From Nitrososphaerota archaeon (GTDB lineage: Archaea > Thermoproteota > Nitrososphaeria > Conexivisphaerales > UBA164): DNA of 53,140 nt. The notes under the pieces were generated by a model that saw only the letters and a list, made by a program, of their open reading frames with translations, was not told the origin of the DNA and did not search any database. The stretch lies in the NCBI GenBank assembly GCA_023381255.1, contig JAMCTX010000012.1:1-53140 (forward strand). Reading direction: 5' to 3'. The translations under genes and the position numbers were made by a program. Position 1 is the first letter of the stretch; every line of letters begins with the position of its first letter. Below, one piece after another: positions 21,284 to 27,809 of the stretch.

Positions 21284-21613
21284 ATGATCAGTGATGCGGA
21301 AGAGACTGCTAAAGAATTATCAATTTTGCTTGAAGCAGATTATGATGAGATATTATATTATATTACCCTGCTAATTAATAAATCTCAATATTTTAACTTA
21401 AGGGCTGAAAACGACGGCCTGATCATTAAGGGCAATGATGGGCATGCCGTACCGCTACATCCAAGGATGGCTATATCCAATTTGTACAGGATGTCCATTC
21501 TGAAAAACCCAAGCGTCAAAGACCACAGAGCAAGGATTGATGAGTTGATAGCAAAGCTGATTTCAATCAGCCAGAGCAGTAAAACATTTCAAAGTTATCA
21601 AGCTAAATTTTAA
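21284..21613 (+). CDS. Uncharacterised archaeal protein, possibly a regulator fragment
   Basis: A 109-residue protein, mostly helical. It opens MISDAEETAKELSILLEADY and holds AVPLHPRMAISNLYRMSI, a string I associate loosely with archaeal TrmB-like regulators. A separate DNA-binding helix-turn-helix is not evident. It follows the NifX-like gene after 30 bp and probably shares its transcript. Codon use and composition match the neighbourhood, so I take it as a true gene, but give no function. Confidence 0.55.
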   Translation: MISDAEETAKELSILLEADYDEILYYITLLINKSQYFNLRAENDGLIIKGNDGHAVPLHPRMAISNLYRMSILKNPSVKDHRARIDELIAKLISISQSSKTFQSYQAKF

Positions 21614-22051: not shown

Positions 22052-22300
22052 TTAGGCGAAGTTGCCTGTTACAATCGTTTCCTGCATGGCAATTTCAATA
22101 TCTTCGACGTTGTAACCCCTAGTTTTAAGCTGCTTTCTGGCCTGAGGAGATAACTTAACTGATACATTGTGGCCACCATACCTGCCAAAAGCAGTTCCCG
22201 TAAATTTATATTTCCTTCCGTCAATGGTGACTTCCCCCCTCAATGTGCCAACTATATCACCCATATTGGCGCTTATCACTTTAACCTTGATATTAGGCAT
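22052..22300 (-). CDS. Uncharacterised small beta-rich protein
   Basis: An 82-residue protein with several predicted strands (IKVKVISANMGDIVGTLRG, VTIDGRKYKFTGTAFG) and a charged helix (SPQARKQLKTRGYNVEDI). It has no signal peptide or membrane span. Its ATG (22300) overlaps the region of the stop of the gene at 22302-22691 (TGATATG), so the two are translationally linked. No family is recognised. Confidence 0.55.
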   Translation of the reverse strand: MPNIKVKVISANMGDIVGTLRGEVTIDGRKYKFTGTAFGRYGGHNVSVKLSPQARKQLKTRGYNVEDIEIAMQETIVTGNFA

Positions 22301-22301
22301 A

Positions 22302-22691
22302 TCATCCTATCACCAGGCTGGAATTAATATAATTAGATATGAAATAAAACTTGTGATCGTGGTTATTGCTGCATTTTATACTGCCTTTTTCGTCCACGGT
22401 CAATTCACACTTACCAAATACATTGCAGTTGTGTGAAATCGTGCTGGCAGATTGGGTCAAATGCCATTCGGTTTCCCCATGATCATTACAAGCTATTACT
22501 CCCCATCTGCCAATTTCTGCAAGCGTGCCCATGCCTACGCTTTCTGGCATTTTTGGTTCACCAATTCGCCTTAAATCAGCTGCTGTTCCTCCGCAGTTTT
22601 TGCACTTCCAGATGTCAATAGTTCCATCAACCTCCCCCTTAATTATTATGTTTATTGCGCCTTCATAAGCCATTTTATGTTCACAAGACAT
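22302..22691 (-). CDS. Cys/His-rich zinc-ribbon-like protein of unknown function
   Basis: A 129-residue protein with potential metal ligands: MSCEHKM at the start, WKCKNCGG near residue 30, CNDHGETEWH and SHNCNVFGKC in the middle, and KCSNNHDHKF near the end. The C-x-x-C knuckle plus scattered Cys/His pairs suggests a zinc-binding ribbon, perhaps for nucleic-acid or protein contacts. It is the first gene of a two-gene unit with 22052-22300. The family is not recognised. Confidence 0.55.
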   Translation of the reverse strand: MSCEHKMAYEGAINIIIKGEVDGTIDIWKCKNCGGTAADLRRIGEPKMPESVGMGTLAEIGRWGVIACNDHGETEWHLTQSASTISHNCNVFGKCELTVDEKGSIKCSNNHDHKFYFISNYINSSLVIG

Positions 22692-24952: not shown

Positions 24953-25031
24953 AAACAAAATAATATTTAGATATATCGATTTAACCACATATAAGATTAC
25001 ATTCTACATCAAAAATATGCGTAAAAAAATA

Positions 25032-25586
25032 TCAGTCTTTAATTACAGATACTGTGACGGGTTCAGCTTTGGCCATGATGGTACCTGCTTCAGCAAATGT
25101 GTGATGCCATATCTTTGCTTTCACGCTGGCGTTTACATTGCTTGGACCGACACCAAGCTCGCTTGCCGCTATTGTAACTGTTTCGCTGAACTTAAAAATA
25201 AATTTCTTAGCTTCTTCAAAATCGTTGAAAAACTCCGCATACCCTTCCTTATTAACCCCAAGCATCCATATATTGGTTCTGTACTTTTCCAGAATTGTGG
25301 GGTCTCTGGTCCAGTAAAGCACCCATTTTTTGGCAAATGATATTTCTCTTAAAGTTTTATTTCCAAATGCATTAATCTTATATAGCTTGATTGTATACTT
25401 GATTCTGATTCTTCTGTCGGATTTTTTGTAGGCTAGCCTGAGTGCATCCAGAGTTATTGAATCCAAAAACAAAACAGGAAATGAAAAATCAATCTTAAAA
25501 GAGATTGTGCCTGAAAGGTCAGATTGTGGTACCAGCGCGGAAAGGTGGGCTTCCGGCTGCAGCTTATTTACTTCAAGGCTGATCAA
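25032..25586 (-). CDS. Uncharacterised protein in operon with the tetraether-synthase-like gene
   Basis: TTG 25586 lies 8 bp after the stop of the radical SAM gene, so the two share a transcript. The 184-residue product is rich in beta strands in the first half (TISFKIDFSFPVLFLDS, RRIRIKYTIKLYKI), has FAKKWVLYWTRDPTILEKYR in the middle, and ends in VKAKIWHHTFAEAGTIMAK and PVTVSVIKD. It has no transmembrane segment and no cysteine cluster. I do not recognise the family. The tight coupling makes it a candidate accessory or lipid-handling partner of the synthase. Confidence 0.6.
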   Translation of the reverse strand: MISLEVNKLQPEAHLSALVPQSDLSGTISFKIDFSFPVLFLDSITLDALRLAYKKSDRRIRIKYTIKLYKINAFGNKTLREISFAKKWVLYWTRDPTILEKYRTNIWMLGVNKEGYAEFFNDFEEAKKFIFKFSETVTIAASELGVGPSNVNASVKAKIWHHTFAEAGTIMAKAEPVTVSVIKD

Positions 25587-25593
25587 TTTCTGC

Positions 25594-27246
25594 TTAACCT
25601 GTTATACCGCTCAGCATTTCGTTAACCAAGCAGGTCTGGCCAACGCCTTCTTTGATTGCCTGCTTTCTTAACTGACCCCTGTATAGCCGATCCTCAAGCT
25701 TTTCATGGTGCAACTTTTCCCATTCCTCAACAGGCATACCGTATTTTTTCTGTATTCTGTCCCTGTACCATTCGGGAATCACGTTAAAGCTGCAGAACGG
25801 TATTATTCTCATATCAGGTGTGAGGTAGTGTATGTCGCACCGCTGGAGCCTTTCTTCATCATGGTTGTATTTATCTTGGAAATGCATCATTCCCAAGAAC
25901 AGGCTGTTCATTTGCAGCCTGCCCATTGACGAGTAATCATGCTTGAACAGCACGTCAAACAACAGCTTGCCCAAATCTAATCCGTCAGGCTCCTTTGACT
26001 TGTCCACAAAGCCTCTGATTTTCAGGGCAACCCTTGCCAGCTGCAGATATTTGTTTGAGCCAGAGTTTATCTCGTCAGACACTTCGTCCAGAAATTCCAC
26101 CAGCCCATTCACGTCCACAAATCTGGTTATGGGTACCAGCCTGTTGGTTTTTTTGTCAAGGTAAACGTAGGTGCCGGCACCGCATGCAAAGTGTATTGAA
26201 AGTTCATACTGCTTCCTGGTTGTTATGGCCTCTATAAAGTGGGTGACTGGAGAGCAGCTGGGCACGGGGTACCAGTCGTCTCTGGCTATTTCCCCCTCTG
26301 ACAACTCCTCTATCCTTTTTATCACATCAGGAATGGTTATCCTGTACTTTTCACGTTCCTTTTTGCTCATCCTTCCAGTAAGCGATACCGGCTGGAAGTT
26401 TACGGCTCTCACAACGTCTATGTTTTGCTTGGCATATTTGATTATATCATACGTTTCATGATCGTTAACTCCCTTTATCACTGTTGGCACAAGCACTACC
26501 CCTAGGTTGGCACTCCTGCAAGCTTCAATTGCATAAGGAGCCTCCCAGTGGTTTTTAGGGTTTGTCCTCGCAGTAACGCCGTCGAAACTCATATACAGAT
26601 TGCTCACGCCAGCTTTCTTGTATATTTTGGCCAGTTCAGGATGCAACGCAAGGTTCACGCCGTTTGTATTTAGTTGCACATGTTCAACACCTTCCTCCCT
26701 GATTATTTTTATAATTTCTGGAAGGTCATCCCTCATCGTGGGTTCCCCTCCGGTTATCTGCACTGAATTTCCAGGCACTGGCCTTTCAGCCCTTAAAGTT
26801 TTAACCATGCCCCTTATCTGCTCGAGCGTTGGCTCATAAACATAGGCCCCTTCGAGCCCCTTCTTGACATAAAAGAAACAGTACCAGCATGTAAGGTCAC
26901 AGCGGTTTGTTATTATTATATTTGCAAGCCCAGTATGGCTAAGATGGTTCGTGCACAGGCCACAGTTGGTAGGGCACTGGCACTTGTCCATTTTTACGTT
27001 TGGGGCCTCCTGCTTTTTTCCATCATCCCAGTAGGCGCTGAACCTGCGATACATATCGTAATCACCGAAGTAAAGTTCTTCGGTTTCTCCGTGAACTGGG
27101 CAAGTCTTGCGCATGAATACCTTGCTGTCGCGTTCAAAAATTTGAGCCTGAATTATTCTGTTGCACTCAGGGCATATGCTTTGAGTCATTTTGATCGGCT
27201 TTTCATCTTGTTGTTTTATTTCCTTATCAACTTGCGTGCTTATCAT
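25594..27246 (-). CDS. tes: Radical SAM tetraether synthase-like protein (Tes/MJ0619 family)
   Basis: A 550-residue protein with three cysteine regions: an N-terminal C25-x2-C28 with C49; a C89, C91, C95, C98 cluster (KCQCPTNCGLC); and the radical SAM motif CDLTCWYC (Cys116, 120, 123). Radical SAM barrel motifs include QITGGEPTMRDDLPEI, and a C-terminal RCDIHYLTPDMRIIPFC carries further cysteines. This layout is that of the archaeal enzyme that joins two archaeol tails carbon to carbon to make tetraether (GDGT) membrane lipids. The acting site would be the membrane face. A strong TATA box (27268-27279) gives a start at ATG 27246. It sits at the head of a two-gene operon with 25032-25586. Confidence 0.85.
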   Translation of the reverse strand: MISTQVDKEIKQQDEKPIKMTQSICPECNRIIQAQIFERDSKVFMRKTCPVHGETEELYFGDYDMYRRFSAYWDDGKKQEAPNVKMDKCQCPTNCGLCTNHLSHTGLANIIITNRCDLTCWYCFFYVKKGLEGAYVYEPTLEQIRGMVKTLRAERPVPGNSVQITGGEPTMRDDLPEIIKIIREEGVEHVQLNTNGVNLALHPELAKIYKKAGVSNLYMSFDGVTARTNPKNHWEAPYAIEACRSANLGVVLVPTVIKGVNDHETYDIIKYAKQNIDVVRAVNFQPVSLTGRMSKKEREKYRITIPDVIKRIEELSEGEIARDDWYPVPSCSPVTHFIEAITTRKQYELSIHFACGAGTYVYLDKKTNRLVPITRFVDVNGLVEFLDEVSDEINSGSNKYLQLARVALKIRGFVDKSKEPDGLDLGKLLFDVLFKHDYSSMGRLQMNSLFLGMMHFQDKYNHDEERLQRCDIHYLTPDMRIIPFCSFNVIPEWYRDRIQKKYGMPVEEWEKLHHEKLEDRLYRGQLRKQAIKEGVGQTCLVNEMLSGITG

Positions 27247-27809
27247 TTAGCGATGGTTAAACGGCAGTTATATATATAATTTTTAACCAAAATAACAATA
27301 AAAAGTGATTATAACTGAGTTATAAATAATTATTTATTGTAAAAAAAGGGATGAATTGCACATATAATATCATTGAATTTTATAAAATTAATAAATTTAA
27401 TTTATAGTTGGTGTTTAATTGGACAAATTTTTTAATATAGTTTTAAATATGAATTGGATAAGAGCGTTTTCTGGTGAATTATTGGTTGACTGCATTGACA
27501 GCATGTATTTACACATCGAACTGTATGCCCGCTGTTGAAAAAAGTGGTAGAAATGCTAAACAGCATTCTCAACTAATCAAAAGCCCAGTTAAATGAAATT
27601 TGTTTATACCAATGCGCATCGTTCATTGCTTGCATATATGATGCCTGACCACGATGCATTGTTATAATAATCCCATTCTGTTTTTTAAAGTCAATTATCT
27701 ACCTGCCGCCTGTTAACAATAACCCGCTATGGGCGTTTGATATTTTTGAACACAACTGGTTCAGCTTTTGCAAAAAAGTTTAAATTATAAAGGGCTATAT
27801 GTTGAAAAA
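27247..27809. other. Long AT-rich intergenic region
   Basis: This 560-bp gap is divergent between the tetraether synthase and the HIT gene. It contains the synthase promoter, and a TATA-like stretch (TTTAAATTATAAA, 27779-27791) ahead of the HIT start. A 29-codon frame at 27449-27538 (MNWIRAFSGELLVDC...) is too short to accept. No RNA gene or repeat was recognised; the length leaves room for a small RNA. Confidence 0.35.
27268..27279 (-). promoter_or_regulatory. tes: TATA box of the tetraether-synthase-like gene
   Basis: TTATATATATAA (palindromic) lies 22-33 bp upstream of ATG 27246 on the minus strand, the correct position for an archaeal core promoter with a leaderless start. Confidence 0.6.

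Follow-up and report, generated by a model that had tools for sequence, protein, structure and literature searches.

A conserved orphan gene beside the TesB subtype of archaeal tetraether synthase, a possible accessory protein

The tes-PART locus

The window analysed here is a stretch of 53,140 nucleotides (contig JAMCTX010000012.1) from a Nitrososphaerota archaeon with an assembled genome of 1.28 Mb in 25 contigs; the nearest named relative in the search is "Nitrososphaeria archaeon isolate DRTY3_bin.13" (L051), with 81% identity. Two adjacent genes on its reverse strand are considered. The upstream gene, tes (25594-27246), encodes a radical SAM tetraether lipid synthase of 550 aa, and the gene directly downstream on the same strand (25032-25586) encodes a basic orphan protein of 184 aa. 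In archaea, tetraether synthase joins two lipids of the membrane into a single lipid that spans it. We will use the term PART for the orphan protein and the terms TesA and TesB for two subtypes of the synthase, all three being labels coined in this analysis. The Tes of the window is of the TesB subtype.

The original prediction called the upstream gene Tes-like, and its sequence identifies it as a tetraether lipid synthase. The protein scores 703.2 bits with NF045702, for which the cut-off is 450, covers positions 2-485 of the 486 in the model, and matches PDB entries 7tol/7tom with an E value of 3.6e-136. The CxxxCxxC motif of radical SAM enzymes is present as CDLTCWYC, aligned to CNLNCPIC of 7tol, and further cysteine positions are shared. 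The window Tes is thus a member of the Tes/GDGT-MAS family (NF045702; MJ0619, PDB 7tol), aligned to 7tol over nearly its full length. The 7tol alignment stops at residue 515 of the query, before a tail that lies C-terminal to the catalytic part and has the pattern L-[ER]-x(2,3)-LYRG-x-[LMF]-R-[KR], followed by a stretch with a cysteine. In the window the motif is LEDRLYRGQLRK (25663-25698, reverse strand; residues 517-528), and the cysteine is residue 539 (25630-25632). The LYRG tail has been found in all 33 TesB sequences compared (16 PART-linked, 17 from families f7, f9 and f10) and in 0 of 38 other Tes. TesB therefore differs from MJ0619/7tol in having this tail beyond the aligned end and in coming with PART; the available portion of the Tes structure paper mentions no operon partner of MJ0619 (PMC9433317).

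Seven bases separate the tes stop from the PART start, in agreement with the predicted distance of 8 bp, which is obtained by counting to the start base itself. Upstream of tes, a TATA-like box (27268-27279, reverse strand) is the presumed promoter of the pair, and a T-run directly 3' of the PART stop (25023-25029, reverse strand) is the presumed terminator, both as read from the sequence. Because the box precedes tes, only 7 bp lie between the genes and the T-run follows PART, the two are probably co-transcribed. PART begins with TTG (25584-25586). The same first start codon is seen in every f1 or f2 locus with a resolved ORF start (homologues L002-L009 and L013), unlike most of the f7 loci listed, in which PART starts with ATG. 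The TTG is perhaps a deliberately weak, translationally coupled start.

Comparison with the sister genome G001 gives a dN of 0.112 and a dS of 1.224 for PART (dN/dS ~0.09), and a dN of 0.023 and a dS of 1.279 for tes. Since dN is far below dS in both cases, both genes are under purifying selection. The ratio for PART, together with the occurrence of homologues in 38 of the 61 relatives, excludes a chance ORF and establishes PART as a genuine gene.

PART as an undescribed protein family

PART is present in a single copy per genome in the 38 relatives, and in 58 of 299 genomes from the phylum. Residues Trp92, Arg94 and Trp107 are invariant in an alignment of 34 homologues (A4), while Tyr53, Asp57, Lys87, Pro96, Leu144, Gly147 and His162 are nearly so; the L074 sequence was excluded from this alignment and from alignment A2.

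The window protein has no match in Pfam or NCBIfam at E ≤ 1. Searches with the family gave scattered matches to Pfam (33 rows, best E 0.042) and NCBIfam (34 rows, best E 0.018), with no credible family in either, and chance-level matches to PHROGs (34 rows, best E 0.039). Against PDB sequences, the best match of the single protein has an E value of 0.23, and the 34-row A4 profile returned one chance-level match (E 2.3). The original prediction assigned the protein to no known family, and this statement stands; judged by these searches, PART is an undescribed protein family. A viral origin was also considered and rejected: viral contigs scanned with A2 gave 11 pattern matches and no relative, and the matches in PHROGs were at chance level only.

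Electron supply and membrane tethering had been proposed as functions of the neighbour. Neither is favoured by the composition of the family. Cysteine is absent altogether from the window protein and from 28 of the 34 homologues, and no cysteine is conserved; Pfam and NCBIfam gave no match to a redox family, so that PART does not resemble a carrier such as a ferredoxin, flavodoxin or cytochrome. No hydrophobic segment of ~19 residues that could serve as an integral membrane anchor was found over the 34 homologues, in which the highest 19-residue Kyte-Doolittle mean is 1.30, the usual transmembrane threshold being ~1.6. Electron transfer and transmembrane anchoring by PART are consequently unlikely on the sequence data, while peripheral membrane docking or substrate handling would be possible. 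The window protein has an isoelectric point of 9.4. Of the 12 rows from the host's order, 11 fall within 9.0-10.0, and the remaining 22 rows lie within 6.0-9.5.

An AlphaFold2 model built from two rows only (window and L051) has a mean pLDDT of 44.1 and is too poor to be relied on. The strand pattern in A4, assessed by eye, suggests an Ig-like beta-sandwich. Together with a C-terminal hairpin of the G-x-x-x-x-x-A-x-V type, it looks like the soluble Ig-like or arrestin-like beta-sandwich adaptors. No family of this kind and no PDB chain matches PART in sequence, and the likeness is a lead and not a statement of membership.

Linkage of PART with the TesB subtype

Seven f1 genomes have two Tes copies, and PART lies beside only one of them, the TesB copy. 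In a 56-row tree of Tes (duplicates L046, L047, L124 and L128 removed; 16 PART-linked rows), the PART-linked copies group with the Tes of f2, f3, f52, f7, f9 and f10, and this group is what we call TesB. The second copies of f1 fall outside it and are called TesA. The PART-linked label changes twice on this tree, against a mean of 14.1 changes after shuffling, and 0 of 500 shuffles gave a value as low. The families with PART (f1, f2, f3, f7, f9, f10 and f52) are the families represented in TesB. PART was absent from the searched genomes of the 13 families with other Tes in the tree, among which f5, f6 and f8 were searched with a single protein only. The second, PART-less tetraether synthase of the host itself is found at L052:7058-8692 (G000:C19); its counterpart in G003 adjoins glutamate dehydrogenase and xanthine-dehydrogenase-type genes, and the same clusters flank the host copy.

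Within the host's order, PART is present in 14 of 20 genomes and a Tes over the cut-off in 18 of 20. All 14 PART genes are located within 1.2 kb of a Tes, which is always of the TesB subtype. The original prediction named conserved adjacency as its check, and absence of the neighbour beside Tes in all relatives as the contrary outcome. The adjacency is conserved: PART is the next gene downstream of TesB in all 11 PART-bearing genomes of f1 (seven) and f2 (four). Measured by script, the gap ranges from -4 to 51 bp in ten of these; in the eleventh, G018, it is ~14 bp as read from the frame. Close linkage is also seen in 3/3 genomes of f3 and in both PART-bearing genomes of f52. In f3, PART is divergent from Tes at 986-1141 bp, with an aspartate/ornithine carbamoyltransferase-type gene between them in the two genomes where that gene was called. 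In G243 and G312 of f52, which belong to another class, the genes for Tes, a HerA-type ATPase and PART follow one another on one strand in the same run. The ATPase is of the HerA/DUF87 type (L137:6457-7605 and L138:8728-9807), and none of the other loci compared has a member of its cluster.

Eighteen other window genes around Tes served as a control. Only c14 (13 of 14 loci), c20 (10) and c19 (8) recur near the linked Tes, and the remaining 15 are near it in at most one locus each; PART is near it in 13 of the 14 loci when scored by script, and by frame in G018. The gene order around Tes is scrambled between families while the Tes-PART pair is kept.

The absences also coincide. The six genomes of the host's order without TesB are also without PART: TesA is the only copy in four of them (G003, G006, G009 and G010), and no Tes passes the cut-off in G013 or G019. 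TesB and PART are both present in G008, which shares its genus with the four TesA-only genomes. Given completeness values of 92% (G003), 91% (G006), 66% (G009), 68% (G010), 86% (G013) and 55% (G019), some of these absences may be assembly gaps. At the thresholds applied, neither Tes nor PART was detected in G336, a third f52 genome, which is 67% complete. One f7 genome, G050, has PART and no Tes over the cut-off. Its best match to the TesB-type TrmB has an E value of 2.1e-21, against 1.2e-108 in G052. An eRF1/pelota-like gene lies at a distance of 2.5 kb from Tes in G052, and its match in G050 is weak (E 1.3e-6). Since G050 lacks this gene as well as Tes and the TrmB on the Tes side, the absence of Tes is probably due to a stretch missing from the assembly.

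An enlarged tree included 15 further Tes from the class of G243, with 14 PART-linked rows remaining after removal of the near-copies L042, L045, L049, L050, L055, L060, L146, L147 and L148 (two of them PART-linked). TesB forms a clade of 27 rows with a support of 100/99 and with f52 inside, although the position of f52 within it is weak (81/87), and the 15 Tes of the class of G243 are elsewhere. The nesting of the f52 TesB in this clade, apart from the Tes of its own class, points to a transfer of TesB, PART, TrmB, c14 and c20 into f52.

Among the neighbourhood genes, c14 (22302-22691, reverse strand) encodes an orphan protein of 129 aa with four invariant cysteines in a 10-row alignment and only weak, zinc-ribbon-like matches in Pfam. 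It is present in exactly the 14 of 20 genomes of the host's order that have PART, although its distance from Tes is 13 kb in G008 and the two are on separate contigs in G001. TesB, PART and c14 thus behave as a module, and because c14 shares the pattern, presence and absence alone cannot tell which member touches Tes. The conserved proteins c19 (22052-22300, reverse strand; 82 aa) and c20 (21284-21613, forward strand; 109 aa) have no Pfam match, and c20 looks by eye like a small winged-helix regulator. A TrmB-family regulator is found beside or near Tes in many, though not all, of the loci examined (L040:3138-3908, L048:3138-3902, L127:524-1303, L076:9166-9924 and L137:3119-3868) and is not beside the Tes of the window. 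TrmB is a candidate regulator of tetraether synthesis.

A possible accessory role for PART

We propose, tentatively and at somewhat less than an even chance, that PART is a cytosolic binding partner of TesB and influences its position at the membrane or the balance of its products. PART would serve the TesB subtype as an accessory protein, soluble in the cytosol and lineage-specific, and would be made from the message of TesB with translational coupling at the TTG start. Its first candidate docking site is the C-terminal tail found only in TesB; as tail and PART are both traits of a single clade, the match between them may represent one event. Through binding, PART would modulate the place on the membrane surface at which TesB acts, or its choice of product, and leave the radical chemistry unaffected. 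A more specific version is improbable. It holds that TesB is a distinct class of synthase and that PART, as a beta-sandwich adaptor, grips the LYRG tail, docks TesB on the inner face of the membrane and sets the balance between macrocyclic archaeol (joining within one lipid) and GDGT (joining between two lipids), with c14 as a redox or metal member of the module.

A role for PART as a general partner of Tes has been ruled out: of 61 genomes sampled from the class of G243, 54 have Tes and only 2 have PART. According to the accessible parts of the respective papers, Tes of M. jannaschii works by itself: it yields GDGT in vitro with Ti-citrate (PMC9433317) and also in E. coli (PMC12042123). As most Tes occur without PART and the M. 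jannaschii enzyme works alone, PART is not generally needed. It is dispensable for Tes chemistry in general and at most a modifier of one subtype.

The arrangement in f7, f9 and f10 argues against a simple partnership. PART is away from Tes in these families; its immediate neighbour in 20 of 22 loci is rpoL, and the TFS and PCNA genes come next. PART might therefore serve an unrelated core process, such as transcription or DNA handling, its adjacency to tes being a retained old gene order. The presence of PART in all 24 f7 genomes searched among the relatives and the ATPase gene that separates it from Tes in f52 would fit such a role. Retained order does not readily explain why the pair is kept when other genes around Tes are reshuffled between families, why PART is missing from all six TesB-less genomes of the host's order, or why it travels with TesB in another class, and this explanation is considered unlikely, if a serious one. 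PART could also belong, together with TrmB, c20 and c14, to a module for regulation or sensing, where it would act on regulators or lipid supply and not bind Tes, and this reading is slightly less likely still. It agrees with the shared neighbourhood of TrmB, c20, c14 and c19 in f2 and in genus g2 of f1 (TrmB, c14 and c20 in f52), with the presence pattern that c14 shares with PART and with the divergent TrmB gene beside Tes in several f7, f9, f10 and f8 loci. However, genera g1, g3 and g4 of f1 keep Tes-PART with no TrmB beside Tes, the best TrmB match of the host is a different frame of 409 aa (E 2.9e-26), and PART is not with TrmB in f7.

Tes requires reducing power, which would favour a metal or redox partner feeding electrons to it. 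The Tes homologue MA_1486 of M. acetivorans is numbered next to the reductase-ferredoxin pair ma1484-1485, adjacency being judged from the gene numbers in the available portions of the sources (PMC8941075, PMC12042123), so that a Tes gene apparently lies near possible helper genes there as TesB does near PART. That pair consists of the reductase and ferredoxin of archaeol saturation, and PART resembles neither. With its lack of conserved cysteines and of any redox family match, PART is very improbable as an electron donor, and c14, with its four invariant cysteines, would be better suited to such a role.

Binding of PART to TesB, with an effect on position or product, would bear on a recognised gap: the factors that partition the products of Tes are stated to be not understood in the available text of the Tes structure paper (PMC9433317). 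Our literature search found no paper on the gene neighbourhood or an accessory protein of tetraether synthase. If f7, f9 and f10 are ammonia-oxidising archaea, as their neighbourhoods suggest, then the main marine producers of GDGT also encode PART. The lipids made by Tes underlie archaeal temperature proxies. A protein that is inherited with one Tes subtype and is absent beside the other sampled Tes would offer a concrete test of whether accessory proteins steer tetraether synthesis.
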